DNA of 47,127 bases from an uncultured Pseudomonadota bacterium (GCA_903959175.1 CAJBVW010000015.1:1-47127); one strand, 5' to 3'. Positions 18,422 through 43,876 are shown, counted from the first letter of the stretch. A program made the numbers and translations. Notes: generated by a model from the sequence alone, not told the origin.

Positions 18422-19303
<882 letters not shown>

Positions 19304-21163: not shown

Positions 21164-22542
21164 CGCTGCTGGCCGCCCTGCTGGCCGCCGGTCATGCCGC
21201 CCTGCTGGCCGCCGGTCATGCCGCCCTGCTGGGCGCCGCCGCTGGACATGCCGCCCTGCTGGCCGCCGGTCATGCCGCCCTGCTGGCCGCCGCTGGACAT
21301 GCCGCCCTGCTGGGCGCCGCCGCTGGACATGCCGCCCTGCTGGCCGCCGCTGGACATGCCGCCCTGCTGGCCGCCGCCGGTCATCCCGCCGGTCATGCCG
21401 CCCTGCTGGCCGCCGGTCATGCCGCCCTGGCCGCCGCCGCTGGACGTGCCGCCGGTCATGCCGCTCTGCTGGCCGCCGCCGGTCATCCCGCCGGTCATGC
21501 CGCTCTGCTGGCCGCCGGTCATGCCGCTCTGCTGGCCGCCCGTCATCCCGCCCGCGCCGGTGGCACCGGCTCCGGCGCCCGTCGTCGGGGGCCCGCCCAT
21601 CCCACTGGTCGAGTTCGTGCCCTTGCCGCCCGCGCTGGCGGTGGGGCTGCCCTTCCCGGTGGTAGCGGTGGACTTCGGCTCGGTGGACTCGAAGGTGCCG
21701 CCGATGGTGGAGAGGTAGCGCTTGACCACGCCGCGCTCGAGCATGCTCACCCAGGCCTCACCGCCGAGGCCCTCGCAGGCCGCGGGCAGGCGCTCCAGGC
21801 GCGCGCGCTGCGCGGCGAGCAGCGCGGCGTCGACCTTGGCGATCGCCGCGACGACCTTGTCGGGCGCGTCCTCGGCTGCGGGATCGAGCTCGTCGATCTC
21901 GGCGGCGAAGCTGGCGAGCTCCGTCTCCACGTCGAGCGAGAGGGCCTCCACCGCGAACTGGAGGCCGAGGAGGAGCCGGCGGACGCGCAGCTCCTCATCT
22001 TCTTCGAGTTCGAGCGCGGACCAGGCGGGGAGCGTGGCGCCCCCAGAAGAGAGCTGCGTGGTGCGAGCCTTCACCAGGAGCGTGCCGGGATCGGCGACCT
22101 GCCACACGCGGGTGCGCCCCTCGGCGCCAGCGGCGGTCAGCAGCTCGCGAACGAGGGCCCGCTCGCTCTCGAGGGAGGAGCCCTCGGCGGCGGCGAGGGC
22201 CTCGTATGCGACGCGGGTGCCGCCGTCGTCGCAGGAGGTGGCGAGGGCGCCGAGCAGCGTCATCAGCTCGCGCTCGATGCGGAGCTGCTCCGCCTGGCGG
22301 CGCGCGCCGCGCTTCTCCAGCAGCTCCGTCGCGCGCGTACCGGCCTCGGGGGTGGCCAGCGAGGACAGGACGCTCGGGATCGACGCGAGCGGATCGTCCG
22401 CGTCGTCGGGCTTCTCACTGTTCGCACGCGCTTCGGCGGCCAACGTGGAGGCGCTGGGGGCGGTCGACTTCTTGCTCGCGCCGTCGGGCTCGGCGCCGCA
22501 GCCGGCGAGAAACAGTACGGCGATCAGGGTGGTCACGGACAT
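21160..22542 (-). CDS. Lipoprotein with Gly-Gly-Met-Thr-Gly-Gly-Gln-Gln repeat tail
   Basis: The product has 460 residues. The ATG at 22542 follows GGGGG at a six-base spacing. The signal MSVTTLIAVLFLAGC has no basic residue. Residues about 50-285 are helical and acidic, with coiled-coil character. From about 325 the protein is a low-complexity tail built from MTGGQQ(G/S)G, MSSGGQQGG and MSSGGAQQGG units, ending GGQQR. Such tails are flexible and may phase-separate or bind a surface; the function is unknown. It is the first gene of a pair with the 19352 membrane protein, which suggests a shared job. Confidence 0.8.
   Translation of the reverse strand: MSVTTLIAVLFLAGCGAEPDGASKKSTAPSASTLAAEARANSEKPDDADDPLASIPSVLSSLATPEAGTRATELLEKRGARRQAEQLRIERELMTLLGALATSCDDGGTRVAYEALAAAEGSSLESERALVRELLTAAGAEGRTRVWQVADPGTLLVKARTTQLSSGGATLPAWSALELEEDEELRVRRLLLGLQFAVEALSLDVETELASFAAEIDELDPAAEDAPDKVVAAIAKVDAALLAAQRARLERLPAACEGLGGEAWVSMLERGVVKRYLSTIGGTFESTEPKSTATTGKGSPTASAGGKGTNSTSGMGGPPTTGAGAGATGAGGMTGGQQSGMTGGQQSGMTGGMTGGGQQSGMTGGTSSGGGQGGMTGGQQGGMTGGMTGGGQQGGMSSGGQQGGMSSGGAQQGGMSSGGQQGGMTGGQQGGMSSGGAQQGGMTGGQQGGMTGGQQGGQQR
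21163..21552. repeat. Imperfect 24-42-bp coding repeats
   Basis: Blocks like GGTCATGCCGCCCTGCTGGC and CTGGACATGCCGCCCTGCTG alternate many times. They code for the Met-Thr/Ser-Gly-Gln tail of the lipoprotein. All unit lengths are multiples of three, so copy number can change in frame. There are no regular spacers, so it is not a CRISPR. Confidence 0.88.
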
Positions 22543-26384: not shown

Positions 26385-28724
26385 GTGCAGATCTGGCCGC
26401 GGGGCGCCGATGCTCGGGATTTCCAGTTAGGCGAGGCCGCGAGTGCATACGCCGTGACGAACGCCGCTTCCGCGAACACCGCCTCACGCCGGCTGGGGCT
26501 TTCGGACGCCACACGGGTCGCATTGGCGCCTACCCTTCGGGCCGCGCGCGCGTCGGGGCGTCGGGTGGTCGTCGTGGCCGGTCCCGTGGCCGCCGCCGAG
26601 TGGGCTCGGCTGCTGGAGGGCGCCGAGATCGAGGTGCTCCGCGGCGCGATCCGTACGGCCGCGCTCCTGAGCGCCGCCCGTCCCGAGGCCTCGCCCGGCG
26701 GCCGTGTGCCCCTCGACCGAAGCGCGCCCGCGCTCCTCCTGATCGACGGCGTCTCCTCGCTCGCCGGATGGGCCTTCCTCGAGCGCGCCGAGGCCCGCCT
26801 CGTGCGCCTGATGGACACCGTGGCCTCGACCGCGGGGCTGCGCGCCGAGCTCCTGGTGCGGGACCCCACGCTCGCCGCTCGCGCCGCCACCGTTCCGGAG
26901 GGCACCGATCCGCCGCTCGACCGGCTGCGCGCGCGGGCCGGCATCGCCGCGCCCCCAATCACGGAGCGTCGAGGCGCGCAGTGGGGATGGCGCGTGCTCG
27001 CGTTGGCGGCGCTCTGCGTCGCGGTGGCGCCGCTGGTCGCGGGCGTGTTCGTCGGCCCACAGGAGTCCACCGCGCTCGTCCTCGGCGGCGCGGAGACCCG
27101 CGTACCCGGTGCGCTCTGGCTCGACTCGTGGATCGCCGGCGCCCTCGCGCGCGGGGACCTCTCCGCGCTCGTGAAGACGGACGAGATCTGGTGGCCGTTC
27201 GGCGTCGACCTCGCCGCCACCTTCGGTAACCTCGCACCGGCCGTGCTCGCCGCTCCGCTCGTCTACCTCTTCGGGTACCCGGGCTTCTGGAACGTGTTCA
27301 TCGCCCTGGCGCTCGTGGTGAACGGCGCCGCCGCCGCGAGCCTGGCCCGCGCGGCCGGCGCCCACCGCGTCGCGGCTCTCCTCGCGGGGATCAGCTTCGC
27401 CGTGGCCCCGCCGCTCCTCATCGCCGCGGAGGAGGGGCGGCAGGCGCAGCTCCTCGCCTTCGTCCTCCCGCTCGCGCTGCGCGCCGGCCTGCACGCCCTC
27501 GACGGGCACCGCCCGCGAGACTTCGTGCGCGCCGCCGCGCTGACCGTGGGGGCCGGCTACGTCTGGTGGTGGTACGGCGGCCTCGCGTTCGCCGTGCTCC
27601 TCGTCGGGTGGCTCGACCGCCTCGTGCGGGACCCCGCCGCGCGCCCCCTCCTCTGGGCGAACATCCGCCGCGCTTCCTACCTGGTCGTGCCGCTCGTCCT
27701 CGCCGCGGTGCCGCTCGTCGTCGCGGTGCACGGCGGCCAGGTCTCGACGGTAGAGGCGGGGATCTCCGTGCTCGACTCGGGCGGCGACCCCGGGGCGGAC
27801 GCGCGCATCCTCGAGATCGCCGGCGGCTCGCTCACCCCCGAACAGCTCGTGTTCGGCGGCGGCCCGCTCCCCGCGAGCGGCGTGCAGTCGGCGCTCGTCG
27901 GGCTCGCCCTGCTCGCGCTGATCGTGCTCCCGCTCGGTCGGCGCCCGGGTTGGCTCGTGCTCGCGGGCGGCTTCGGCGTGCTGGCGCTCGGGCCGTGGAT
28001 CACCGTGGGCGACACCGCCTACGAAGCCCCGTGGGACCTCCTCTATCGCTGGGCGCCGTTCTTCTCGCGCTCAGGCGTGCCGGTGTGGATGCTCGTGCCC
28101 GCCGCGCTCTGCCTCGGCGTGTGGCTCGCGCTCGCGCTCACGGAGCTCTCCCCGCGCGCCGACCGCGGCGTCCCGGCGTACGCGCGCGTCGGGATCGTCG
28201 GCCTCGGCCTCGCGCTCGCGCTCGCGCTCCCCGGCGCCGCCGATCGCCTGCCGCTCGCGCGGTTCTCGTTCGACCCGCCCGCGTGGTGGTCGCTGATGGG
28301 GGAAGAGGGCGCCGTGATCGTCATCCCCTTCGTGGGCGACGACATGCCGCTCGCCTACCAGCCGCTCCACGGCCACCCGCTCGCGCTCGGGCCCTCCCCG
28401 GGCACGGTCATCGAGTCGGAGGGCCCGGTCAAGCGCGCGCTCGACGTGTCGCCGCTGCTGCGCTTCCTCTCGAAGCCGAGCGAGCCGCCGTTCGATCGCC
28501 GCGCCCTGGACGACCTGTGGGACGCCGGCCTCCGCTGGATCGTGATCGACCAGCCGCGCATGCGCGGCCTGCTCGAGGCGGGCGCGATGGGCCTCCGTTG
28601 GGCGGAGCTCGGCGAGCAGGTTGAGAACATCTTCGGCCCCGCGCGCGTCGCCACATTCGACGTACGGATCTACGCCGTGCGGGACGTGCGGGACGCCGTC
28701 AGCCTCGACGACGGCGCCCAGTAG
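26385..28724 (+). CDS. GT-C-like polytopic membrane protein with cytoplasmic N-domain
   Basis: The GTG at 26385 follows GGGAGG (26371-26376) at eight bases, a strong signal, and gives 779 residues. Residues 1-200 form a soluble alpha/beta domain (RRVVVVAGPVAAAEWARL; SAPALLLIDGVSSLAGW). It has a Walker-B-like strand but no P-loop, so it may be a degenerate NTPase relative. From about 205 the chain is a polytopic protein with the family marks WWPFGVDLAATFG in the first external loop and NVFIALALVVNGAAAAS in the next helix. A periplasmic end contains GAVIVIPFVGDDMPLAYQ and HGHPLALG. Three relatives follow in this window. It is probably a GT-C glycosyltransferase or flippase-type enzyme acting on lipid-linked sugars. 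Confidence 0.72.
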   Translation: MQIWPRGADARDFQLGEAASAYAVTNAASANTASRRLGLSDATRVALAPTLRAARASGRRVVVVAGPVAAAEWARLLEGAEIEVLRGAIRTAALLSAARPEASPGGRVPLDRSAPALLLIDGVSSLAGWAFLERAEARLVRLMDTVASTAGLRAELLVRDPTLAARAATVPEGTDPPLDRLRARAGIAAPPITERRGAQWGWRVLALAALCVAVAPLVAGVFVGPQESTALVLGGAETRVPGALWLDSWIAGALARGDLSALVKTDEIWWPFGVDLAATFGNLAPAVLAAPLVYLFGYPGFWNVFIALALVVNGAAAASLARAAGAHRVAALLAGISFAVAPPLLIAAEEGRQAQLLAFVLPLALRAGLHALDGHRPRDFVRAAALTVGAGYVWWWYGGLAFAVLLVGWLDRLVRDPAARPLLWANIRRASYLVVPLVLAAVPLVVAVHGGQVSTVEAGISVLDSGGDPGADARILEIAGGSLTPEQLVFGGGPLPASGVQSALVGLALLALIVLPLGRRPGWLVLAGGFGVLALGPWITVGDTAYEAPWDLLYRWAPFFSRSGVPVWMLVPAALCLGVWLALALTELSPRADRGVPAYARVGIVGLGLALALALPGAADRLPLARFSFDPPAWWSLMGEEGAVIVIPFVGDDMPLAYQPLHGHPLALGPSPGTVIESEGPVKRALDVSPLLRFLSKPSEPPFDRRALDDLWDAGLRWIVIDQPRMRGLLEAGAMGLRWAELGEQVENIFGPARVATFDVRIYAVRDVRDAVSLDDGAQ

Positions 28725-28743
28725 CCATCCGGCGGCGCGCGGG

Positions 28744-29253
28744 TCAGGCCCGGCGGGCGCGGAGGATGGCGCCGCGCATGACCGCGGTGATGCCGAGCGC
28801 GAGCACGAGCGCGCCCCAGCCCAGGTACAACGTGGCGGAGCTCAATCCGACCTGCTCGCCGCGGCCCGCCAGGCCGGCGCCCGTGGGGCCGTCCCACGAG
28901 GGGAGCGGGGCGCCGAGCGTGCGCTCGAGGGTCCACTCGCCGTTGACGAGCTCCGCGCGGAGGGTCACCGGGTAGGTGCGGTCGCGCCACGCGCCGGGGA
29001 CCTCGACGCTCTCGCTGTGGGTCACCGGGACGTTCGCGATCTGGCCGGCGATGCGGATGGTGGTGCTGGGCCCGCTGGGCTGCAGCACGGCCCACTGCTC
29101 GCCGTCCCCCTGCATGTCGAAGGAGAAGGCGCCGTCGTCGCTGAAGGAGACAACGCCCTGGGTGGTGTCGGTCCCCGCGACGAGGCGGACGTTCTTCACG
29201 TCCGCCGGAAGGACGACGGCCACGGCGATGAGGTTGTTGTTGGCGCTGCTCAC
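28744..29253 (-). CDS. Single-TM partner protein of the 29250 membrane protein
   Basis: The GTG at 29253 overlaps the stop of the upstream gene (GTGA). The product has 169 residues: an N-terminal beta-rich domain (AVAVVLPADVKNVRLVAG; FSFDMQGDGEQWAVLQPSG) with no signal peptide, then one TM near the C-terminus (about 145-163, LGWGALVLALGITAVM) and a basic tail (RGAILRARRA). It is not recognised. The coupling suggests a complex with the GT-C-like protein. With no N-terminal signal, the domain may face the cytoplasm, or the protein is tail-anchored. Confidence 0.65.
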   Translation of the reverse strand: MSSANNNLIAVAVVLPADVKNVRLVAGTDTTQGVVSFSDDGAFSFDMQGDGEQWAVLQPSGPSTTIRIAGQIANVPVTHSESVEVPGAWRDRTYPVTLRAELVNGEWTLERTLGAPLPSWDGPTGAGLAGRGEQVGLSSATLYLGWGALVLALGITAVMRGAILRARRA

Positions 29254-31052
29254 GTTCCGTCGCTCCCATCGAGCTGAAGGAGGGCCGTCTCCGCGTCGAG
29301 GTCGGAGCGCGGGGCGGGGAGGAGGTAGATCTCCACGGGGTCTCCGCTGGTGTCCTGGGGCGCCGCGCGAGCGGGGCCGAGCAGGCGCGTGAGCCCGTCC
29401 CGCACGCTGTCCACGTCAGAGGTGGGGAAGCTGTCGGCGTGCAGCGCGAGGTCGGTGGTGCCGACGGCGGAGAGGGCCGCGAACACGCGCCTCGCCTCTT
29501 CGTCATCGCCGTGGATGATGGCGCCGGCGATGCGACGGCTCACGGTGGTCATGCGGTCTTCTCCACGGGTGAAGTCCGCGAACACGGGCTGTCCGTGAGC
29601 GACCTGGTAGAACACCGCGCGCCCACTGTACCGAAGCAGGAGGCGGTCGGCGCCGAACAGGTCGAAGACCGCGCCGCGGCCGGTCACCGCGCTGTAGCCC
29701 TCGGGGATGCGCGCGGGGGCGCCCGCCGGGTCGAGGGCAGCGCCCGTGAAGTAGATGCCGTCCACCGCGAGGCAGGCCACCAGCGCGCCCCGCCAGAGCA
29801 CGCTCACGCCGTCGCGCCGCAGCCCGTCGAGCATCAGCGCCGCGAGCGCCGCGATGGCGACTGCGGCGACGGAGAGCAGCCGGGAGGGCATGCGGTAGGC
29901 GAGGATCTGCGGCGCGACGTCCGCGATCCAGGCGTACGGCAGGCGGGTGCCGGGGGGCGCGGCGTCGTCGAGGCGCAGCATCGGCCCGAGCGCGAAGGTC
30001 AGGCTGACCGCGAGGAGCGCCGCCCACGGCAGGGTGCGGCGCGGGGCGCGCGTCACGAGCGCGAGCATCGCCAGCATCAGACCCGCGAGCCCGACGTAGA
30101 AGATGCGGTCCTGCCGGAGGGGGGCGGACGCGGGGAAGGGGACGAGGAGCCCGGAGAGGGTCGCGCTGTCCTGGGCGACGTTTCGCAGCGGATCTTCACC
30201 GTCCGGGAAGCGGGACGCGATGGCGTCGGCGCCGCCACCGGCGTTGAGGAGCATCAGCAGCGGCACGACGAAGACGAGGCCGGTCACCGCCGCGGCGAGC
30301 ACGGCACGGAGACGACGCGCGGTGCCGGGATCTCCGTCCTTGGCCGCGCGGATGCTCGCGGCCCAGGCCGTCGGGCCCACGACGGCGGCGACCACGGCGC
30401 CGTTGACGCCGAAATACCCGGTCGACCACGCGAGCGCGGCCAGGAGCGCGCCTCCGACGACGCCGTCCCTCACGCGGCCGTCGCGCGCCACCCGGAGCAC
30501 GGCGCCCGCGAACAGGGGGAGCAGGCCCCCGGCGAGCAGGTAGGCCTCGCCTTCGAGGCGGAAGCTGTGGACGAGCGACGAAAAGCCGACGATCCAGCCT
30601 GCCGCGAAGCCCGCCATCGGACCGACGCCGAGGTCACGGCGCGCGAACCACCAGCCCGCGAGGGCGGTCGACGCGAGGCCCGCGAGGGTGAACGCGTTGT
30701 AGGCGGCGACGGGAGAGAAGAGGAGGCGGAACGGGAGGTACAGGACGCCGAAGAGGAAGCTGTCGGCGAGGCGGAGGTCGAGCCCGACGGGCCAGTTGAC
30801 CTCCGGGGCGGTGAACGGGGGCACGTCCCCATGGAGCGCGCGCCACGCGTGCTCCCCGAACCACACGACGCCGTAGCCGTCGAAGCGGCGCACGCTGAAC
30901 GGAAAGGTGGTGTGCAGCTCGGTGACCAGCGGCCAGGTGACCAGGCACGCGGCCGCGAGGAAGGTCACCGCCACGAGGGTGCCCTCGAGGAGGCCGCCGC
31001 GGGAAGGGAGGGCCGCTGGAGGGGGCGGCGCTCGGGACGGTGTCGGATTCAT
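29250..31052 (-). CDS. GT-C-like polytopic membrane protein (YfhO-type)
   Basis: ATG 31052 gives 600 residues with a Pro-rich start, then TM1 (LVAVTFLAAACLVTWPLV). The loop after it holds FPFSVRRFDGYGVVWFGEH and VNWPVGLDLRLADSFLFG, matching the WPFGVDL motif of the 26385 protein. The periplasmic end has RIPEGYSAVTGRGAVFDLFG and VAHGQPVFADF, again the family pattern (a Gly-Ala-Val strand, then His-Gly-x-Pro). It is a likely glycosyltransferase or lipid-linked sugar enzyme. The next gene overlaps by four bases. Longer in-frame starts upstream are Arg/Pro-rich and rejected. Confidence 0.75.
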   Translation of the reverse strand: MNPTPSRAPPPPAALPSRGGLLEGTLVAVTFLAAACLVTWPLVTELHTTFPFSVRRFDGYGVVWFGEHAWRALHGDVPPFTAPEVNWPVGLDLRLADSFLFGVLYLPFRLLFSPVAAYNAFTLAGLASTALAGWWFARRDLGVGPMAGFAAGWIVGFSSLVHSFRLEGEAYLLAGGLLPLFAGAVLRVARDGRVRDGVVGGALLAALAWSTGYFGVNGAVVAAVVGPTAWAASIRAAKDGDPGTARRLRAVLAAAVTGLVFVVPLLMLLNAGGGADAIASRFPDGEDPLRNVAQDSATLSGLLVPFPASAPLRQDRIFYVGLAGLMLAMLALVTRAPRRTLPWAALLAVSLTFALGPMLRLDDAAPPGTRLPYAWIADVAPQILAYRMPSRLLSVAAVAIAALAALMLDGLRRDGVSVLWRGALVACLAVDGIYFTGAALDPAGAPARIPEGYSAVTGRGAVFDLFGADRLLLRYSGRAVFYQVAHGQPVFADFTRGEDRMTTVSRRIAGAIIHGDDEEARRVFAALSAVGTTDLALHADSFPTSDVDSVRDGLTRLLGPARAAPQDTSGDPVEIYLLPAPRSDLDAETALLQLDGSDGT

Positions 31053-31205
31053 CGCGTTGGGTGCGGTAACACGTCGCAGACCTCGGGTTGACGAGCGAGT
31101 GCCGACGGGCAAAGCTGCCGGCGCGTGCCCTGGTGCCGCGGGGAGGCGGCCACGGCTTCGAGGGGCGATCAAACCGAGCGTGGGGTCTGCCTTCAGGGCC
31201 GGGGC

Positions 31206-31823
31206 CTGCGGCTCCTATGCGGGCTCGCGCTCGGGCTGGCGGCGTGCGCGGACGGGGCGGCGCCGCCGGAGTCGATGCCCGAGCGGCGCGGCGAGACGCC
31301 CGCCGAGGTGGCGAGCGCCGCGGGGTTCACCGCCAACGAGACCTGCCGGGAGTCCGATCCGCACGCCGCCGTCGCGCACCTCGTGGCGGCCGGCGGCGTT
31401 CGCGCCTCCGTCGCGCTCGGCGAGACCGGCTCCCGCTGGGAACAGGCCCTCGCTCAGCTTGCCGCGGCGCAGGCTGACTGCTTCGCGGCCGACATGACGG
31501 GTGTCGTGCCCGACGCCGCCGCGCGCGCGCTCCGCGCCGCCCTGCTCCGCGACGTGACCGTCCCACGCAAGGATCGCGGCGGCATGCCCGAGCTGTCCTG
31601 GCGGCTCCTGGAGGACGGTTCGCAGCGCGCCGCCCGCGAGATGCCCGCGGTGGACGCCGCCCTGCGCGAGGGCAACCTCGTCGTCGCGCACGGCGGGCTC
31701 GTCGCGGCCCAGCGCGCCCGCCTACGGGACATCCCCGAGGTGCTCCGCTTCCTCGACGAGACCGACCGCTCCACCTTCCTGGAGGATCCCGCGTGGATCG
31801 GCTGGCTCGGGGTGGCGCCGTGA
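31206..31823 (+). CDS. Lipoprotein of unknown function (CTG start), 205 residues
   Basis: The only place where a signal peptide starts in frame is CTG at 31206, giving LRLLCGLALGLAAC and then ADGAAPPES. The nearest in-frame ATG (31125) lies far upstream, in Arg-rich nonsense. AGGG lies about nine bases before the CTG. The mature protein is helical and Ala-rich, with a Cys pair (CRESD...QADC) and a segment like DVTVPRKDRGGMPELSW. The family is unknown. It overlaps the GT-C gene behind it by four bases (GTGA), so the two are coupled. Confidence 0.6.
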   Translation: MRLLCGLALGLAACADGAAPPESMPERRGETPAEVASAAGFTANETCRESDPHAAVAHLVAAGGVRASVALGETGSRWEQALAQLAAAQADCFAADMTGVVPDAAARALRAALLRDVTVPRKDRGGMPELSWRLLEDGSQRAAREMPAVDAALREGNLVVAHGGLVAAQRARLRDIPEVLRFLDETDRSTFLEDPAWIGWLGVAP

Positions 31824-33631
31824 GCCGCCTCTCGCCCCGCTTCGTTTCGTGGGCCGCGCCGATCGCCACGCTCGCGTGGTTCGTCGCGCTGGCGGTCGGC
31901 GTGACCTGGCCGGTCGCCGCCAACCTCGGCACGATGATCGTGGGGAACGACCGTTCGGGGCCGTGGCGCACCGTGTGGGCCCACGAGTGGACCCTCCGCC
32001 GCCTCACCGAGACGGGCAGCTGGCCGCTCGACGCGCCCGAGATCAGCTACCCCGGCGGTGGCTCGTTCTCGAGCATCGCGCCCGTGCACGACGCCATCGG
32101 CGTGCCGCTCCAGCTGATGTTCGGCCTCGTCCCTACCTTCAACCTGCTGGTGCTCGGGCACCTCGTGTTCGCGGCGATGGCGGCATGGGCCTTCGCGCGC
32201 ACGGTGGGGCTCGGCTACGGCGGGGCGCTGGTGACCGGCACGATCTTCGGGTTCAACACCTTCGTGCTCAGTTACGGGGTGTCGAGCGCCGTCGTCGAGA
32301 CGACGACCGGCGGTTGGTGTGCCCTCTTCCTCGTCGCGGCGGTGCGCCTCGTACGCGCGCCGCGGTTCAGCACGGCGCTGACCGCCGGGATCCTCTGGGC
32401 GCTGATGGCCCTCGCCTGCCTGTACTGGTCGGTGATGATGGCGCTCCTGGCGCCGTTGTTCGTCGTCGCGGCGGTCCTTGCCGGCGGCCCCTTCCTCACG
32501 CCCCCGCCGATCGTCGTGACGCCGCTCTGGAAGCGCGCGGCCTACGTGACCCTCGGCGGCGTGTTCGCCGCGGCCCTGTTCCTGCCGCCCGCGATGGCCT
32601 TGCTCGGCACCTACGACGCAGGCACCGGCTTGCTCGCCGGCTATGCCGAACGCAAGCAGGAGATGCTCGACGCCACCGTCATGGCCGGCCTCGCGCACGA
32701 CTTCGCCACGCTCGTCGGCTACCTCGTCCCCGGGCGTGACGCGCTGGTCGAGCACATCGACCTCGACGTGCTCCGGCAGACCGTCTACGCCGGCTGGACC
32801 GCCCTGCTCCTGGCCTGGGTCGGCTGGGGCACGGGGACCCGCCGCTGGGGCGTGCTCGCGGTCGGCTGCGCCGTGCTCTCCCTCGGCCCCTTCGTGTTCC
32901 TGTCCGCGACCAGCTACCGCGAGACCGTCGCGCCCTGGTGGGAGCTCCTGCGCGAGGTGCTGCCGCCCATCCGGATGATCACCTCCTACGTGCGCTTCGC
33001 CCTCTTCGCGTTCCTCGCGCTGGGCGTGCTGGCGGGCGCGGGCGTCGAGCGGATCGTGGCGTGGGGGCGTGCGCGCTGGGGCGTGACCCTCCCCATCGGC
33101 GTGCTCGCCGCCCTCCTCGTCTCGGCCGAGCTCTGGACCGTGAGCCCCGTGCCGCTCCCCGTCCCCACGGCGGACGCCACCATCCCCGAGGCCTCCCGTC
33201 GCCTCGCCACGCTCCCCCGCCCCGGCGCCGTGATCGACTGGCCCCAGCGCTACGCCGGCACGCGCTCCGAGGTGTCGCGGTACTTCTACTGGCAGTCGGT
33301 CCACCACCGGCCGATCCCGTACGACTTCGCGCCGAGCGGCTACCTGCCGACGTGGCTCGAGGCCAACGCCTTCTACGCTGCGCTGGAGAAGCGCACGTAC
33401 GGCCAGGACTACGACTCCGGCGCGTGGACGGAGGACTCCGACGACGCCGTCTACGTCGGCCTCGCGCGCGTCGCGGCGCAGGGCTTCGCCTACCTCGTCG
33501 TCCACGCCTCGCTCATCGCGGACGAGCGCAAAGAGTCGCTCTTCACCTTCCTCGACGCGCGGGTGCCCCTCGTCGAGCGCTTCCCGGACGGGACCGCCAT
33601 CTACGACCTCGGGGCCTTCGGGTTCCCGTGA
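31820..33631 (+). CDS. GT-C-like polytopic membrane protein (YfhO-type)
   Basis: The GTG at 31820 overlaps the lipoprotein stop, giving 603 residues. An earlier ATG (31793) would lie inside the upstream gene. The family layout is the same: TM1, an external loop with APEISYPGGGSFSSIAPVHD, then a helix with FNLLVLGHLVFAAMAAWAF. There is a mid-protein loop of charged residues around YAERKQEMLDATVM. The periplasmic end has RPGAVIDWPQRYAGTRSEVS and SVHHRPIPYDF. It is paralogous to 26385, 29250 and 33628. It is coupled by GTGA to the next paralogue. Confidence 0.75.
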   Translation: MSRLSPRFVSWAAPIATLAWFVALAVGVTWPVAANLGTMIVGNDRSGPWRTVWAHEWTLRRLTETGSWPLDAPEISYPGGGSFSSIAPVHDAIGVPLQLMFGLVPTFNLLVLGHLVFAAMAAWAFARTVGLGYGGALVTGTIFGFNTFVLSYGVSSAVVETTTGGWCALFLVAAVRLVRAPRFSTALTAGILWALMALACLYWSVMMALLAPLFVVAAVLAGGPFLTPPPIVVTPLWKRAAYVTLGGVFAAALFLPPAMALLGTYDAGTGLLAGYAERKQEMLDATVMAGLAHDFATLVGYLVPGRDALVEHIDLDVLRQTVYAGWTALLLAWVGWGTGTRRWGVLAVGCAVLSLGPFVFLSATSYRETVAPWWELLREVLPPIRMITSYVRFALFAFLALGVLAGAGVERIVAWGRARWGVTLPIGVLAALLVSAELWTVSPVPLPVPTADATIPEASRRLATLPRPGAVIDWPQRYAGTRSEVSRYFYWQSVHHRPIPYDFAPSGYLPTWLEANAFYAALEKRTYGQDYDSGAWTEDSDDAVYVGLARVAAQGFAYLVVHASLIADERKESLFTFLDARVPLVERFPDGTAIYDLGAFGFP

Positions 33632-35319
33632 GCGAGCGAGGCGCGTCGTCCGGGCCGTGGTGGGCCGTCGTGGCCATCGGCCTCGCCGCGTGCGTGGTCG
33701 TAGAGGGTGCGCTCGCCGGCGCGCCCGTGGGGGAAGGAACGGTCGACGCGATCGGCACCTGGTGGTTCCAGTGGTGGGTCGCGGACACGCTCTCCACCGG
33801 CTCCTCCTTCCTCTACACCGACCAGCTCTTCTTCCCCTTCGGGAAGGATGTACTCGCGCACACCGGCGCCAACGTGCTCGACGCCCTGCTCGTCGCGCCC
33901 GTGCGGCTCGCGCTGGGTCCGGTCGCCGCCTGGAACCTGCTCGTCGCGGCCGTGGTGGCCACCAACGGGCTGGCCGCCGGGCTGGTGGCGCGGCGCGGCG
34001 GGGCGCTCGCAGGCGTGCTCGGCGCAATCCTTGGCGGGCTCCATCCGTACGTCCTCCACGAGCTCGGCCAGGGCCGGCCCACCCAGGCCATCGTGGCGCC
34101 GCTCCTCGGCGCCCTCGTCCTCGGGGACACCGGCCTGCGCAGGGGCGGGATCGGTCGGCTCGTCGCCGCCGGCGCACTGTTGGCGCTCCAGGGCTGGTTC
34201 TACTGGTTCGCAGGGCTCTTCGGCGCGCTCGCCCTCGCCGTGCTCGGCGCCGGCGCGGTGTGGGACGCACGCCCCCGCGGCGTCGTGTCGGCCGGTCGGC
34301 TCCTCGTCGCGCTCGGCGTGGCGGCCGCGCTCGCCGCGCCCGTCGCGGGCCCCCTCGCGGTCTCCGCGGCGCGTGGGGAGGCCTCCGGCCTCATCGACGT
34401 CTCCCGGTGGCTCGCGGACGGCACCACCGTCACCCGGGAGGGCGACGTCGTGCGCCTCACCGTCCTCGGGGCCGCGGGCGAGGCCGGCGTGCTCGACCGT
34501 GGCGGCTTCCTGCCCGACGGCCCGATCCTCGGGCTCGGCGTGCTCCTGCTCGCCGCGCTCGCGCCGTGGCGGTGGCGGATCGTCGGCCTCCTCGCACTCT
34601 TGTTCGCGTTCGGGCCCTCGATCGGCGGCGTCACCAACCCGGTGTACGTCGCCGTCGCGGCGCTCTGCCCGCCCCTGGCGCGCCTCTGGTGGCCGGTGCG
34701 CGCGCTCTCCCTGCTGGTCCCGGTGGCTGCCGTGGGGCTCGCGGCCCTGGGGCGGGCCCGTCGCACCGACGCGCCCGGGCAATTCGCCGCGGCCTTGCGT
34801 CGCGTGCCGACCGCTGCGCTCGGGATCGGCCTCGCGGTGGTGCTGGGCGGCGAGGTCGTGGCCCGCGGCCTCCTCCCGTTCGGGACCTGGCAGCCGCGCG
34901 TCCCCGAGGGGGTCGCCGTCCTCGCCGAGTCTCCGAAGGGCGCCGCGATCGTGCTGCCGTGGGGCTACGACCAGACGCCGCTCCTCTACCAGACCACCAC
35001 CGGCGTGCCGCTCTTCAACGGCATGTACGAGCGCACGGCGGCCTTCGTGCCCGACGCCCTGCGCGCGCTCCAGCGGGAAAACGGCTTCGTCTCGGCCCTT
35101 ATGGTTGTGCCGGTCGACCCCCGCGCCGTCACCCCCTACACGGAGGCCGAGAAGGCGGCCTTCGTCGCGCTCGGCTACCGCTGGGTCGTGCTCCGGCGCG
35201 CCGCCACCGGCCCGCCCGACGGCGCGCGCGCCCGCGGCGTGCTTCGTCGGCTCACGCAGATGTTGGGGGCGCCCCGGGTGCAGGACGCCGACGTGTACGT
35301 CTGGGACCTCGCCGGCTGA
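33628..35319 (+). CDS. GT-C-like polytopic membrane protein (YfhO-type)
   Basis: The GTG at 33628 overlaps the previous stop (GTGA), giving 563 residues. Motifs of the array are present: DQLFFPFGKDVLAHTGANVL after TM1, WNLLVAAVVATNGLAAGLVA, and at the end AAIVLPWGYDQTPLLYQTTT then GVPLFNGMYER. It carries about ten TM helices. It is the last gene of the lipoprotein - GT-C - GT-C operon. The paired, tightly coupled paralogues could work as a heterodimer or act in succession on one lipid-linked sugar. Confidence 0.75.
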   Translation: MSERGASSGPWWAVVAIGLAACVVVEGALAGAPVGEGTVDAIGTWWFQWWVADTLSTGSSFLYTDQLFFPFGKDVLAHTGANVLDALLVAPVRLALGPVAAWNLLVAAVVATNGLAAGLVARRGGALAGVLGAILGGLHPYVLHELGQGRPTQAIVAPLLGALVLGDTGLRRGGIGRLVAAGALLALQGWFYWFAGLFGALALAVLGAGAVWDARPRGVVSAGRLLVALGVAAALAAPVAGPLAVSAARGEASGLIDVSRWLADGTTVTREGDVVRLTVLGAAGEAGVLDRGGFLPDGPILGLGVLLLAALAPWRWRIVGLLALLFAFGPSIGGVTNPVYVAVAALCPPLARLWWPVRALSLLVPVAAVGLAALGRARRTDAPGQFAAALRRVPTAALGIGLAVVLGGEVVARGLLPFGTWQPRVPEGVAVLAESPKGAAIVLPWGYDQTPLLYQTTTGVPLFNGMYERTAAFVPDALRALQRENGFVSALMVVPVDPRAVTPYTEAEKAAFVALGYRWVVLRRAATGPPDGARARGVLRRLTQMLGAPRVQDADVYVWDLAG

Positions 35320-38261: not shown

Positions 38262-38436
38262 GGAGCGGCTTCCGGACGGCCGAGCCTATCCACCGTGAGC
38301 GGAGCGGTGCAAGGGCGGGCGCGGGCAAAGCGTCGTCGCCCGGCCGTGCGTCGCCGGAGGCAGAACCGTGCGGAACATCCGGGTTATCGAGGGCCCGTCG
38401 CTCGGCGGGGCCCGCGCCGCCGCGTCCGGAGGAGCC

Positions 38437-39456
38437 ATGACCGCCCCATTCGACTCGCTCGTCGCCTGGATCCGCGCCGTTGGAGGGCACGTCGGCGCCC
38501 TGGGGGTGGACAGTCGCGGCGGCGAGCGCGGCGGCGACCGCGGCCTGTTCGCGACCGCCGGGGCGGAGGAGGGGGCGTTGCTCCTGCGGGTGCCGCGGGC
38601 GTGCATCGTGACCACGGACGTCGCTGCGGAGACCGATATCGGCCGATGGATCGCGGCGCGCTTCGACGGCGGCAGCGTCGAGCAGGTGCTGCTCGCCGCG
38701 TGGATCCTGCACCGGCGCGACCGGCCCGATCCGCGCTGGGCGCCCTACCTCGCGACCCTCCCCGAGCGCGTCCCGACCCACCCGTTCTTCTACGATCGCG
38801 CCCGCGTGCACGCCCTCCGCGGGACCTCGCTGGAGGCGCTCGTGCCCGCCCGGCGCGCCTTCCTCCTCGAGGAGCTGGGCTGGCTGCGCGCGCACGTCCC
38901 CGACACCGCGGGCTGGACGGACGACGCGTGGCTCCTCGCGCGCACGCTCGTCACCTCCCGCCTCTTCGGCCTCGAAGGCGCGGTCGGCAACGCCCTCGTG
39001 CCGCTCGCGGACCTCTGCAACCACGCCCTCACCCCCGGTGCGCGCTGGGGCCTCGACGGCGACGACTTCGTGCTCCACGCGGCCACCGCGCTCGCGGCCG
39101 GCGCCGAGGTCCATGAGGGCTACGGCGCGAAGTCGAACCTCCGTCTCCTCCTCCACTACGGCTTCACCCTCGCCGAGAACCCCGAGGAGGACTGCATCGT
39201 GGACGTGGAGGGGCAGCCCGTGCAGCTCGGCGCCGCGCCGACCGAGGAGACGGTGCGCGAGGCGGTGGAGGGGCTCGCGTGGGACGGCGACGAGGCGCGC
39301 CTGCACGCCGCCCTCCGTCGGGTGTGCGCGGCGCGGCTCGCCGCCCTGCCGTCCGCGGAGGAGGACGCCGCGGACGAGGCCGTCGCGCTGGACGCCGTTC
39401 GGGTGCGTCGGGGCGAGCGGCGCGTGCTCGCCGCGTGGTGCGCGCGGTTGGCTTGA
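38437..39456 (+). CDS. SET-domain protein (SETD3/Rubisco-LSMT-like)
   Basis: ATG 38437 follows GGAGGAG and gives 339 residues; an upstream in-frame ATG (38368) is less well placed. The family (SAM-dependent protein lysine or histidine methyltransferases) is known mainly from eukaryotes. Seen here are GGDRGLFATAGAEEGALLLRVP (SET-N), the long insert (YLATLPERVPTHPFFYD; EELGWLRAHVP) and the core NALVPLADLCNHALTPGARW, followed by VHEGYGAKSNLRLLLHYGF. The Asn-His of DLCNH and the Tyr of EGYG are the usual SAM and substrate positions. Its target is unknown. It may have come by transfer from eukaryotes. Confidence 0.85.
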   Translation: MTAPFDSLVAWIRAVGGHVGALGVDSRGGERGGDRGLFATAGAEEGALLLRVPRACIVTTDVAAETDIGRWIAARFDGGSVEQVLLAAWILHRRDRPDPRWAPYLATLPERVPTHPFFYDRARVHALRGTSLEALVPARRAFLLEELGWLRAHVPDTAGWTDDAWLLARTLVTSRLFGLEGAVGNALVPLADLCNHALTPGARWGLDGDDFVLHAATALAAGAEVHEGYGAKSNLRLLLHYGFTLAENPEEDCIVDVEGQPVQLGAAPTEETVREAVEGLAWDGDEARLHAALRRVCAARLAALPSAEEDAADEAVALDAVRVRRGERRVLAAWCARLA

Positions 39457-39732: not shown

Positions 39733-42084
39733 TCACGCGCCGAGCGCCACGCGGACGAGCTCCTGGACGAGTCCCGGGTTCGCCGCACCGCGCGTGGCCT
39801 TCATGACCTCGCCTACGAAGAAGCCGAGCAACCCCGTGCGGCCGCCCCGGAACGCGGCGAGCTGGCCGGGGTTGCGCGCGATCACGTCCGCCACGACGGC
39901 CTCGATGGCGCCGCGGTCGGAGACCTGCCGGAGCCCCTTGGCGGCGATGATGGCGTCGGGGTCGCCGCCCTCGGCGAGGAGCACGGCGAGCACGTCCTTC
40001 GCGGAGCGGCCGGTCACCGTGCCGTCCTCGATGCGCAGGACGAGCTTGCCCACCGCGGCGGCGTCGCGGACGGAGCCGCGGGCGTCCTTCGGGAGCTCGT
40101 TGAGCAGGAACGTCGCGAGCGCGGGGGCGTGGGCGCCGACGGAGTCCGCGGCCTCGTCGAACAGCGCCGCGAGCGTGTCGTCGGAGGAGAGCAGCGCGGC
40201 GTCGTCCTCGGCGACCCCGAGCGCGCCCATCCAGCGCTCCGCACGGGCCGACTGCGCCGGGGTGAGCGTATCGGCGACGGGCTTCTTCGCCACGGGGGGG
40301 GCGTTACGGGGAGGCTTGCCCCCCTGTCCCATGACCTCGGGGCCCTTCACCGGCGCGGGTGCGGCCGCCGGCTTCTCCGCCTTGGACCACGAGTCCTTCA
40401 GGCCGACCACGCGGTTGAGCACCACGGTGTCGGCGGTGCTGTCGACGGGGTCCGTGTAGAAGTAGCCGACGCGCTCGAGCTGCAGGTGCCGGCCGCCGCC
40501 GAGCGCGATCAGGCCGGGCTCGGCGTAGGCGGTCACCGTCGTGAGCGAGCGGGGGTTGAGGTGGGTGAGGAAGTCCTCGTCGCCGGCGTCGGGGCGCTCG
40601 GCGGTGAAGAGGCGGTCGTACACGCGCACGGTGACGGGCCGCGCGACGTCCGCCGCGACCCAATGGATGGTGCCGGGCACCTTGCGGCCGTCGGGCGTGG
40701 TGCCGCCGCGCGTGGCGGGGTCGTGGGTGCAGCGCACGGCGACGACGGCGCCGGTGGCGTCCTTCTCGACGCCGACACACTTGACGACGTAGCCGTAGCG
40801 GAGGCGCACCTCACGCCCCGGCGCGAGGCGATGCCACTTGGGGGGCGGCTCCTCGGAGAAGTCCGCCCGGTCGATCCAGAGCTCTCGGCCGAAGGTGACG
40901 GGGCGGGAGCCCTCCTGCGGCACGTCGTGGGGCCAGTGCGGGGCGTCCATCGTGTCACGTTTGTCGGCGGCCCAATCCTCCACGATGACCTTGAGCGGAT
41001 CCAACACCGCCATCCAGCGGGGGGCGCGGGCGTTGAGGTCGTCGCGGATCGCGGCGTCGAGGGCCTCGATGTCGACCACGGAATTGGCCTTGGCGACGCC
41101 CACGCGCTCGCAGAAGTCGCGGATTGCCTCAGGCGTTACGCCGCGGCGGCGCAGGCCCGCGATCGTCGGCATGCGGGGGTCGTCCCAGCCGGCGACGTGG
41201 CCCTCCTTCACCAGCCGGAGCAGCTTGCGCTTGCTCATGAGCATGTGGGTGACGGCGAGGCGCGCAAACTCGTACTGCTGCACCTTGTAGGCGCCGGTCT
41301 CGCGGATGACCCAATCGTAGATGTCGCGGTTGTTCTCGAACTCGAGCGTGCAGATGGAGTGGGTGATCTGCTCGATCGCGTCCTCGAGGGGGTGGGCGTA
41401 GTCGTACATCGGGTAGATGCACCATGTGTCGCCGGTGCGGTGGTGGTGCTCGTGGCGGATGCGGTAGAGGAGGGGATCGCGGAGCTTGAGGTTTGCGGCC
41501 GACATATCGCCCTTGCCGCGGAGGACGCGGGCGCCGTCCGGGAACTCGCCGGCGCGCATGCGGCGGAAGAGGTCGAGGTTGTCGTCGACCGAGCGGTCGC
41601 GCCACGGGCTCGGGCGGCCGGGCTCCCAGGCGGTGCCGCGGTGCTCGCGGATGCCGACTTCGTCGAGGTCGTCGACGTAGGCCTTGCCGCTGCGGATCAG
41701 GCCCTCGGCGAGCTGGTACATCTCCTCGAAGTAGTCGGACGCGAAGAGCACGGCGCTCGGCGTGAACCCGAGCCAGCGCACGTCGGCCTCGATGGACTGG
41801 ACGTACTCGACCTCCTCCTTCGCGGGGTTCGTGTCGTCGAAGCGGAGGTTGCAGGTGCCGCCGAACTCCTTCGCGAGGCCGAAGTTGAGGCAGATGGACT
41901 TGGCGTGGCCGAGGTGGAGGTAGCCGTTGGGCTCGGGCGGGAAGCGCGTCGCGACCCGATCGTGTACGCCCGCCTTGAGGTGGTCCCGGATGAGGGTGCG
42001 GAGGAAGTTGTTGGCCTCCGGTGCGGCCGACTCGGGGCGAGCGGCGGGAGACGCGGGAGGGGACTCGACGGGGGGCGTGGCCAC
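39733..42084 (-). CDS. glnS: Glutaminyl-tRNA synthetase with C-terminal YqeY/GatB-like domain
   Basis: The product charges tRNA-Gln with glutamine (cytoplasm). It has 783 residues, against about 550 in E. coli. The class I motifs are present: FPPEPNGYLHLGHAKSI (HIGH version HLGH at about 57-60) and LMSKRKLLRLV (KMSKS version about 280). The GlnRS-specific region DDTNPAKEEVEYVQSI is also present. The anticodon-binding beta-barrels end about residue 555. A linker of Pro/Ala/Lys follows, then a helical domain of about 190 residues (ADTLTPAQSARAERWM to the stop) with IEDGTVTGRSAKDVLAVL and GQLAAFRGGRTGLLGFFVG. This matches the YqeY/GatB tail known from Deinococcus GlnRS, which helps tRNA binding. 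The start is GTG 42084. Confidence 0.95.
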   Translation of the reverse strand: MATPPVESPPASPAARPESAAPEANNFLRTLIRDHLKAGVHDRVATRFPPEPNGYLHLGHAKSICLNFGLAKEFGGTCNLRFDDTNPAKEEVEYVQSIEADVRWLGFTPSAVLFASDYFEEMYQLAEGLIRSGKAYVDDLDEVGIREHRGTAWEPGRPSPWRDRSVDDNLDLFRRMRAGEFPDGARVLRGKGDMSAANLKLRDPLLYRIRHEHHHRTGDTWCIYPMYDYAHPLEDAIEQITHSICTLEFENNRDIYDWVIRETGAYKVQQYEFARLAVTHMLMSKRKLLRLVKEGHVAGWDDPRMPTIAGLRRRGVTPEAIRDFCERVGVAKANSVVDIEALDAAIRDDLNARAPRWMAVLDPLKVIVEDWAADKRDTMDAPHWPHDVPQEGSRPVTFGRELWIDRADFSEEPPPKWHRLAPGREVRLRYGYVVKCVGVEKDATGAVVAVRCTHDPATRGGTTPDGRKVPGTIHWVAADVARPVTVRVYDRLFTAERPDAGDEDFLTHLNPRSLTTVTAYAEPGLIALGGGRHLQLERVGYFYTDPVDSTADTVVLNRVVGLKDSWSKAEKPAAAPAPVKGPEVMGQGGKPPRNAPPVAKKPVADTLTPAQSARAERWMGALGVAEDDAALLSSDDTLAALFDEAADSVGAHAPALATFLLNELPKDARGSVRDAAAVGKLVLRIEDGTVTGRSAKDVLAVLLAEGGDPDAIIAAKGLRQVSDRGAIEAVVADVIARNPGQLAAFRGGRTGLLGFFVGEVMKATRGAANPGLVQELVRVALGA

Positions 42085-42193
42085 GATGGCTCCGGTTGGC
42101 GCCGACCATCTAACCGGGACGGCGCCGGACCCCCACCACCGGGCGCGGACGCCGCTGGACGCACCGCGGCGGTCGGCCTACAACGTGGGTCCC

Positions 42194-43876
42194 ATGCTCC
42201 TCCTCCTCGCCTGCACCGCCTCGACGCCCCGGCTCGCCGATCCGCTCCCGGATCCGCGCGCGGACCGTGACGACACCGTCCCCGCCGACGCGATCGAGGA
42301 CCTGCCCGGCGCGGACACCCCTGCGGATCCGACCGACGCCGTCTTCGACCCCACGCGCATCGCCACCCTCGAGCTGACGATGGGGGGCGCCGACTGGGCG
42401 GAGATCCGCGACACTCCGTGGACGGAGGCGTGGCACACCGCCACCTTCCGTTGGGACGACGAGGAGGTGACGGAGATCGCCGTGCGGGCCTTCGGTCAGG
42501 GGAGCCAGATCGCCGGGAAGTCCTCGCTCAAGCTCTCGTTCGACCGCGTGGTGGACGGGCAGGAGTGGCACGGTCTGGACGAGCTGAAGCTCGACAACAG
42601 CTCCCAGGACGTGGGCTTCCTGAACGAGTTCCTCGCGACCGCGATCATGCGCCGCTTCGGGGTGCCCGCCGCGCGCACGGGGTGGGCGCGCGTGCGGGTG
42701 AACGGAGAGAACGCCGGGTTCTTCGTGGTGCTCGAGAGCATCGACGACCGCTTCGTGGAGCGTTGGTTCGGGCACGACGACGGGGTGTTGTACGGGATGA
42801 ACTCCGGCTACTACGCCCAGGGCCTCAACCCGATGGCGGACGGGCTGACGTGGTTCGAGCCGCAGACCTCGATCGACAGCGACGGCGCCGACCTCGTGGC
42901 GCTCGCCGAGACGGTCGCGTCGGGTACGGACGAGGAGCTGGCGGCGGTGCTCGATCTTCGGGGCTTCGGCCGGGAGAGCGTGGCCCGCTCGGTCATGGGC
43001 TCGATGGACGCGTTCTCGGCGGACGGGAACAACTACTACCTCTACGACGACGGCGGGCGCTGGACGATCCTGCCCTGGGACTTCGACGTCGACCTCGGCG
43101 GCTACTACTTCTCCCAGGCGCTCACGGTCGACCCGCGCGCCCCGTGGGCGACCTCCCCGTGGGCCGTCAACCCGATCACCGGCGCCGCCTACACGGACCC
43201 CGTGCTGACGCGGAACCTGGCGTCGGGCCTCGACACCGACGCGCTCGTGGACGAGCTCCTCGCCGGGGCGATGGATTGGGAGACGGTCGACGCCGAGGCG
43301 AAGGCGGCGGCCGAGCTCATCCGGGACGACGTCTACGCGGACGTGCTCGGATACGGGAGCGCCTTCGATCAACGAAGGGCGGACGTGCGGATGTTCCTGC
43401 ACGCGCGCCTCTCGGGGCTCACCGGGTACGACGTGGCGCCGTGCGCGATCCCGGACGGGCTGCCCGCGGACGCCGTGTCGCTCGCGGACATGGCCCCCAC
43501 CGGGACGGTCGGCTGGGGCGAGCTGCTCGTGGACCGCACGTATTGGGGCCCGGGCTTCAGCGTGGCCGGAGAGCACGGGTGTACCGGCGTCTTCGCGCAC
43601 GCGCCGAGCACGGTGACCGTCACGATCCCGGACGGCGTCACGCGGCTCGTGGGCAAGGCGGGGCTGCAGGACTGGGTGCAACAGTGCGGAGACGGCGCGG
43701 TGTTCGCGATCCGCCAGGGGACGACGCTCTGGGAGAGCGACACCCTCCGCAACTACGATGCCGCCGCGGCCTTCGAGGTGGAGGTGTCACCGGGAGCGCT
43801 CACGCTGGTGACGACGACCAACGCCGACTACAGCTGTGACACCGCCGCGTGGGTGGATGTGTGGGGAGCACGCTGA
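42194..43876 (+). CDS. CotH-family lipoprotein
   Basis: The product has 560 residues and starts at ATG 42194. The signal is only MLLLLAC, the shortest in the window. The mature protein has an Asp/Pro-rich spacer, then the CotH domain (a family of atypical secreted protein kinases): IATLELTMGGADWAEIRDTP, then GSQIAGKSSLKLSFDR, with Lys as in the family's ATP site. Further on come VRVNGENAGFFVVLESIDDR and the acidic block ILPWDFDVDLGGYYF. Kinase activity is known for spore CotH; for bacterial lipoproteins of this type it is inferred. A C-terminal beta domain of about 120 residues follows. The gene lies 109 bases from the divergent glnS. Confidence 0.82.
   Translation: MLLLLACTASTPRLADPLPDPRADRDDTVPADAIEDLPGADTPADPTDAVFDPTRIATLELTMGGADWAEIRDTPWTEAWHTATFRWDDEEVTEIAVRAFGQGSQIAGKSSLKLSFDRVVDGQEWHGLDELKLDNSSQDVGFLNEFLATAIMRRFGVPAARTGWARVRVNGENAGFFVVLESIDDRFVERWFGHDDGVLYGMNSGYYAQGLNPMADGLTWFEPQTSIDSDGADLVALAETVASGTDEELAAVLDLRGFGRESVARSVMGSMDAFSADGNNYYLYDDGGRWTILPWDFDVDLGGYYFSQALTVDPRAPWATSPWAVNPITGAAYTDPVLTRNLASGLDTDALVDELLAGAMDWETVDAEAKAAAELIRDDVYADVLGYGSAFDQRRADVRMFLHARLSGLTGYDVAPCAIPDGLPADAVSLADMAPTGTVGWGELLVDRTYWGPGFSVAGEHGCTGVFAHAPSTVTVTIPDGVTRLVGKAGLQDWVQQCGDGAVFAIRQGTTLWESDTLRNYDAAAAFEVEVSPGALTLVTTTNADYSCDTAAWVDVWGAR

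Follow-up and report, generated by a model that had tools for sequence, protein, structure and literature searches.

We analyzed a stretch of 47,127 nucleotides from an uncultured Pseudomonadota bacterium (GCA_903959175.1 CAJBVW010000015.1:1-47127), hereafter the window, which contains an array of four genes between positions 26,385 and 35,319, here named GTC1 to GTC4 (Table 1). Sequence comparison indicated that their products are one homologous family, with similarity far above chance, and, as judged from predicted structures, they are members of the GT-C glycosyltransferase superfamily. The family has a known fold and a conserved gene neighborhood, and no Pfam or NCBIfam model describes it. 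We regard it as rather probable that the four are long-diverged GT-C enzymes using a polyprenyl-phosphate-sugar donor, with surface lipoproteins or an envelope glycan as the acceptor.

The four proteins are homologous and have a predicted GT-C fold

Gene frames in the window were called from the GC bias at third codon positions (GC3), and this recovered the four open reading frames that a previous sequence-only reading had described as divergent paralogs with one layout. The motif proposed for that layout, (W/Y/F)P(F/V/G)G(V/L/G/K)(D/S), was present in all four proteins, as WPFGVD in GTC1, WPVGLD in GTC2, YPGGGS in GTC3, and FPFGKD in GTC4, and the Asn of the next helix was found by alignment as WN, YN, FN, and WN, respectively. 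The description of a Gly-Ala-(V/I)-(V/I/F) strand and a His-Gly-x-Pro or Gly-Val-Pro motif held with small errors, as GTC4 has GAA and GTC3 has HHRP, not HGxP. The GTGA overlaps claimed between genes were real when checked in the sequence, and they join the lipoprotein gene P0004 to GTC3 (31820-31823), GTC3 to GTC4 (33628-33631), and GTC2 to P0002 (29250-29253).

Pairwise analysis with blastp aligned GTC1 with GTC4 (E=3e-13) and GTC2 with GTC3 (E=2e-11). A GTC4-type profile of 36 sequences combined sequence from the window with others taken from public metagenome-assembled genomes, whose records were labelled mostly Myxococcota, Deltaproteobacteria, or proteobacterium, and when compared by hhalign it matched GTC1 with 99.9% probability (E=3e-36, 531 columns), GTC2 with 99.6% (E=1e-24, 532 columns), and GTC3 with 99.5% (E=5e-23, 511 columns). 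The negative controls were P0007 and P0017, two polytopic proteins of the same window, and they gave probabilities of 0.5% and 0.15%, respectively, which rules them out as homologues of GTC1-4 and indicates that membrane composition cannot account for the matches among the four. These data bear out the proposed paralogy.

The AlphaFold2 model of GTC4 had a mean predicted local distance difference test (pLDDT) score of 91.8 and a predicted template modeling (pTM) score of 0.92. When this model was compared with the PDB, the top 19 matches, each with a probability of 1.00, were all GT-C enzymes, and the next match dropped to 0.06. The matched enzymes included STT3 of the yeast and mammalian oligosaccharyltransferase (OST; E=5e-7), DPY19 (4e-6), AftA (3e-5), ArnT (4e-4), and PglB (5e-4). 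The model of GTC1, built with GTC4 relatives as the alignment, had a mean pLDDT of 72, with the first 190 residues poor and the core mostly good, and the top matches of this core were GT-C enzymes, the same as for GTC4 plus AglB and AftD. Thus, the suggestion that these are GT-C proteins is upheld by predicted structure for GTC4 and GTC1, and by profile homology for GTC2 and GTC3.

None of GTC1-4 was recognized by a Pfam or NCBIfam model, and a sequence search of solved structures gave nothing meaningful, with neither GTC2 nor the GTC4 profile matching OST chains. Membership in YfhO (PF09586), the type named in the sequence-only reading, was ruled out, as neither GTC1-4 nor any of the 36 GTC4-type members had a Pfam match to it. 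PMT_2 (PF13231) was also rejected, with GTC1-4 unmatched and weak matches in 2 of the 36 GTC4-type relatives (best E=0.0019). Membership in STT3/PglB was discarded because WWD[YWFN]G is absent from all four and no Pfam or NCBIfam match was obtained. The GTC models resemble STT3, PglB, and AglB, which are their best fold matches and are GT-C enzymes with an Asp in the first external loop (EL1) acting at the outer side of the membrane; however, GTC1-4 differ from these in having no sequence match, no WWDYG, a smaller periplasmic C-terminal part, and no sequon evidence. Likewise, the fold matches of highest probability include DPY19, ArnT, and AftA, but these are only 10-16% identical to the GTC proteins.

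Conserved acidic residues differ among the paralogs

In the 36 GTC4-type sequences, D40, W46, K73, T79, N82, D85, R150, Q153, Y192, W193, R352, W355, and R358 were invariant, position 145 was acidic in 36/36, and D40, K73, D74, N82, D85, E145, R150, Q153, R352, and R358 were each conserved in at least 92%. The GTC2-type sequences keep the EL1 Asp (D66), and E175 is mostly kept. Most GTC3-type relatives have GHPGNDxWNHVWG at EL1; in the ortholog group of the window GTC3, formed by the window and the related genomes G051 and G033, this region reads NDRSGPWRTVW, HELSGPWRTMW, or DEYAGAWRTLW, and that Asp is gone, whereas E169 is retained throughout this group. The EL1 Asp is also absent from the aligned site in GTC1 and its ortholog, and in both GTC1 and GTC3 an acidic residue stands a few positions earlier in the loop. 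According to these alignments, the EL1 Asp is present in GTC2 and GTC4, and displaced or lost in GTC1 and GTC3. By analogy with other GT-C enzymes, this Asp and the second acid would have a catalytic role.

Two features of individual proteins were also observed. The N-terminal extension of GTC1 (26385-26950, about 190 residues) is partly conserved in G051 (L109:2444-3560), where it follows extra hydrophobic segments. The window GTC4 lacks two cysteines conserved in its subfamily, one at position 431 (Cys in 97% of relatives) and one near the C-terminus, and a disulfide may have been lost there.

The paralogs are old and their neighborhood is conserved

A tree built from 68 family members placed GTC1 and GTC3 each with sequences from G033 and G051 (support 1.0), GTC2 with G051 (support 1.0), and GTC4 with five relatives including G051 (support 0.995), and the partners of each window paralog come from another family of the order. 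Since all four join their respective orthologs with a support of 0.995-1.0, the array is made of old paralogs, and a recent tandem duplication as its origin is ruled out. The ortholog of GTC2 in G051 is 44% identical, and those of GTC3 are 51% identical in G051 and 50% in G033; orthologs of GTC1 were found in the same two genomes. G051 contains all four, with P0012-GTC1-P0002-GTC2-GTC4 on one contig and P0010-P0011-GTC3 on another. Orthologs of GTC2 and P0002 were found in this one other genome only, and two genomes of the same genus, G001 and G002, carry an ortholog of GTC4 and no close one of GTC2, indicating that the full cluster is patchy. Hence, the expected co-occurrence in relatives held for the lipoprotein partners and the neighborhood, but the exact four-gene cluster is rare. 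Of 58 relatives, 36-42 had the wider family, frequently with many members in one genome; five families of the order carry it, family f3 does not (0/16 genomes), and its occurrence in the rest of the phylum is sporadic.

The strongest linkage was with the type of P0010, a lipoprotein with MopE metal-binding motifs. Of 90 GTC4-type matches, 13, in 10 genomes, had a P0010-like gene at a distance of 2 kb or less, and 0.27 was expected under random placement, a Poisson figure that ignores genome relatedness; on both sides of this comparison, the P0010 candidates were limited to the best-scored ones of each genome. Among 39 loci that were fetched independently, 21 also contained such a gene. Nine fetched records with P0017 homologues represented eight distinct loci, and in each the next neighbor was a GTC4-type gene; as the loci were picked around GTC4-type genes, this shows position and not genome-wide exclusivity. 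Moreover, a recurrent locus in about 12 genomes of the order (examples are L188, L189, L191, and L200) contains a lipoprotein, a GTC3-type gene, a second family member, a DUF4398-like lipoprotein, and an OmpA/TSP3 lipoprotein, with 4-base overlaps between some genes and parts missing in some genomes. The genome of the window has a second locus, of this kind, on contig C226 (L203), in which the family members came out as a single long frame. Family genes also form runs of two or three in G031, G010, G022, and G004, and in G010:C49 three consecutive ones are followed by a P0010-like gene. The proposed lipoprotein partners are therefore supported by the P0010 linkage and the conserved neighborhoods. 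The SGNH hydrolase type formed 5 pairs with family genes within 2 kb among the matches listed (1.8 expected), and it is missing from family f3 in nearly the same way as the GT-C family; both observations can be explained by shared ancestry. The idea of a dedicated pathway is partly supported by the linked lipoprotein genes, but the linkage of the SGNH hydrolase is modest and the exact cluster rare.

Proposed function and alternative explanations

DPY19, ArnT, and AftA use polyprenyl-phosphate sugars. By analogy with the GT-C superfamily, and with bacterial multi-component systems (PMC8035078), GTC1-4 would most likely lie in the inner membrane and use sugars carried by polyprenyl phosphate at its periplasmic face, which they would pass to exported acceptors, probably the surface lipoproteins encoded alongside, above all those of the MopE-motif type, or else an envelope glycan. 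The products of overlapping genes would act jointly, possibly as pairs. The linkage to lipoprotein genes favors the adjacent surface lipoproteins as acceptor, with an envelope glycan as the main rival.

Several observations weigh against this interpretation. The TM-scores of the models to solved enzymes were only 0.3-0.5, so the superfamily is clear and closer placement is not, and neither donor nor acceptor can be read from the fold. As GTC1 and GTC3 lack the aligned EL1 Asp, not all four proteins need be active. No donor-making GT-A enzyme or flippase was recognized among the window genes examined, and a Pfam model for the GtrA flippase family, positive in control genomes, detected no member in the genome of the window, a draft that is 95% complete; the classical three-component arrangement of GtrA, GtrB, and a GT-C protein is thus not found as such. 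In addition, the MopE-motif candidates are very numerous, as a first look gave as many as several hundred in one genome, and lipoprotein linkage alone is no proof of an enzyme-substrate relation. Our literature search on GT-C proteins in Myxococcota and on MopE/beta-helix lipoproteins found nothing relevant.

The best-placed alternative, which we consider possible though the less probable choice, is that the proteins synthesize or decorate a glycan, either a polysaccharide or a lipid-linked one (lipopolysaccharide core, O-antigen, or lipid modification), in the manner of ArnT, AftA, or YfhO, with the lipoproteins serving as assembly or export factors. The presence of ArnT and AftA among the fold matches is in line with this, as is the SGNH hydrolase that adjoins the array and is weakly linked elsewhere. 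Gram-positive multi-component systems of the YfhO type also use GT-C enzymes to modify polymers of the cell wall, and a separate protein may be required there for binding the acceptor (PMC8035078). Those systems share with the GTC proteins large polytopic GT-C proteins acting outside the cytoplasmic membrane; they differ in the PF09586 and PMT_2 matches and in the GtrA mentioned above. However, no polysaccharide export, Wzx/Wzy, or GT-A genes were recognized among the genes examined, and the gene type most strongly linked encodes a lipoprotein that has metal-binding motifs.

A more tentative explanation, compatible with either acceptor, is that active and inactive subunits form heteromers, where GTC2 and GTC4 would be catalytic, and GTC1 and GTC3 structural or acceptor-binding. 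The recurrent tandem pairs, several with 4-base overlaps, together with the uneven catalytic Asp, which is missing from the groups of the window GTC3 and GTC1 and kept in most GTC3-type relatives, allow for such heteromers. EmbA-EmbB and Pmt1-Pmt2 are known GT-C heterodimers of paralogous proteins; those do pair, whereas pairing of the GTC proteins is putative. The entries 7bvc and 6p25, which we take to be these two complexes, appear in the GTC4 structure search. Nevertheless, the earlier acidic residue in GTC1 and GTC3 could substitute for the Asp, and GTC3 retains the second acid E169.

It is conceivable, though we think it improbable as a whole, that these elements constitute a Myxococcota protein-glycosylation system, in which paired active and inactive GT-C proteins and the P0017 type glycosylate the adjacent MopE-motif lipoprotein, with many modules per genome. 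Finally, the sequence divergence could suit transporters or receptors of a lipid carrier or polymer that retain the GT-C scaffold only, a very improbable option given that every confident fold match is an enzyme and that EL1 and further predicted loops of the GTC2 and GTC4 types contain invariant acidic and Arg residues, as is typical for enzymes.

Other features of the window

Table 1. Genes of the array and neighboring genes, with positions in the window.
Feature	Position	Strand	Description
GTC1	26385-28724	+	N-terminal extension and GT-C core
GTC2	29250-31052	-	GT-C family member; EL1 Asp D66 (trimmed-protein numbering) and second acid E175 kept
GTC3	31820-33631	+	GT-C family member; EL1 Asp replaced, E169 kept
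GTC4	33628-35319	+	GT-C family member; D40 (EL1 Asp) invariant in the subfamily, where position 145 (E145) is acidic throughout
P0002	28744-29253	-	Small, C-terminal hydrophobic helix; GTGA overlap with GTC2; 40% ortholog at the same place in G051:C800
P0004	31185-31823	+	Lipoprotein, lipobox LAAC; GTGA overlap with GTC3
P0010	22645-24453	+	Lipoprotein, MopE metal-binding motifs (PF11617 E=1e-17), repetitive Gly/Ser-rich region; candidate acceptor or partner
P0011	24492-25259	+	Exported-looking, C-terminal hydrophobic helix, 3' of P0010; ortholog adjoins P0010 ortholog in G051:C782
P0012	25279-25950	-	Cys-rich lipoprotein; homologues near GTC1 orthologs in G051:C800 and G033:C189
P0017	19352-21163	-	Polytopic membrane protein, sequence unrelated to GTC1-4
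P0018	21160-22542	-	Lipoprotein, Gly/Gln/Met repeats; 4-base overlap with P0017
P0007	35335-37245	-	Polytopic, EDE and HPPGYF motifs (PMT/GT39-like by eye), C-terminal TPR-like region
P0008	37242-38261	-	SGNH/GDSL hydrolase (PF13472 E=2e-11), overlaps P0007

The assignment of P0007 to GT39 was not sustained, since it has only acidic and HPPGYF motifs and no PMT_2 match, and its contig, C15, is not in the PMT_2 matches of the genome. The inclusion of the neighboring SGNH hydrolase in one pathway with the array was likewise not supported, given the modest linkage described above. The Gly/Ser-rich region of P0010 looks like a parallel beta-helix from its sequence. The predicted start of P0002 has no signal peptide, and none was found in frame upstream; its G051 ortholog (L109:5522-6268) has a clear one. 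Coding tandem repeats at 21172-21553, with units of 27/39 bases, give rise to the Gly/Gln/Met-rich tail of the lipoprotein P0018.

Further along the window, the motifs of 38368-39456 (PLADLCNH, YGAKSN..LLLHYGF) recall SETD3-like SET methyltransferases, with no Pfam match at E<=0.001, and 41927-43876 encodes a CotH-kinase protein with an NPCBM domain; its open reading frame overlaps the 5' end of a glutaminyl-tRNA synthetase-like one (39733-42084) on the other strand. Hexanucleotides are repeated in tandem about 20 times at each of two places, 845-968 and 19090-19212. No RNA families were found in the window, promoter and terminator scans of it gave no signal above shuffles, and a viral fold library returned nothing matching at E<=0.001.

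Implications

The recurrent neighborhood of GTC4, P0017-type, and P0010-type genes provides concrete candidate partners and a candidate acceptor, and the occurrence of paralogs with and without the EL1 Asp offers a test case for GT-C heteromers in bacteria. A large GT-C family without a Pfam or NCBIfam model, with numerous members in each genome across most families of one Myxococcota order and none in another family, points to an unstudied capacity for surface glycosylation in these organisms.

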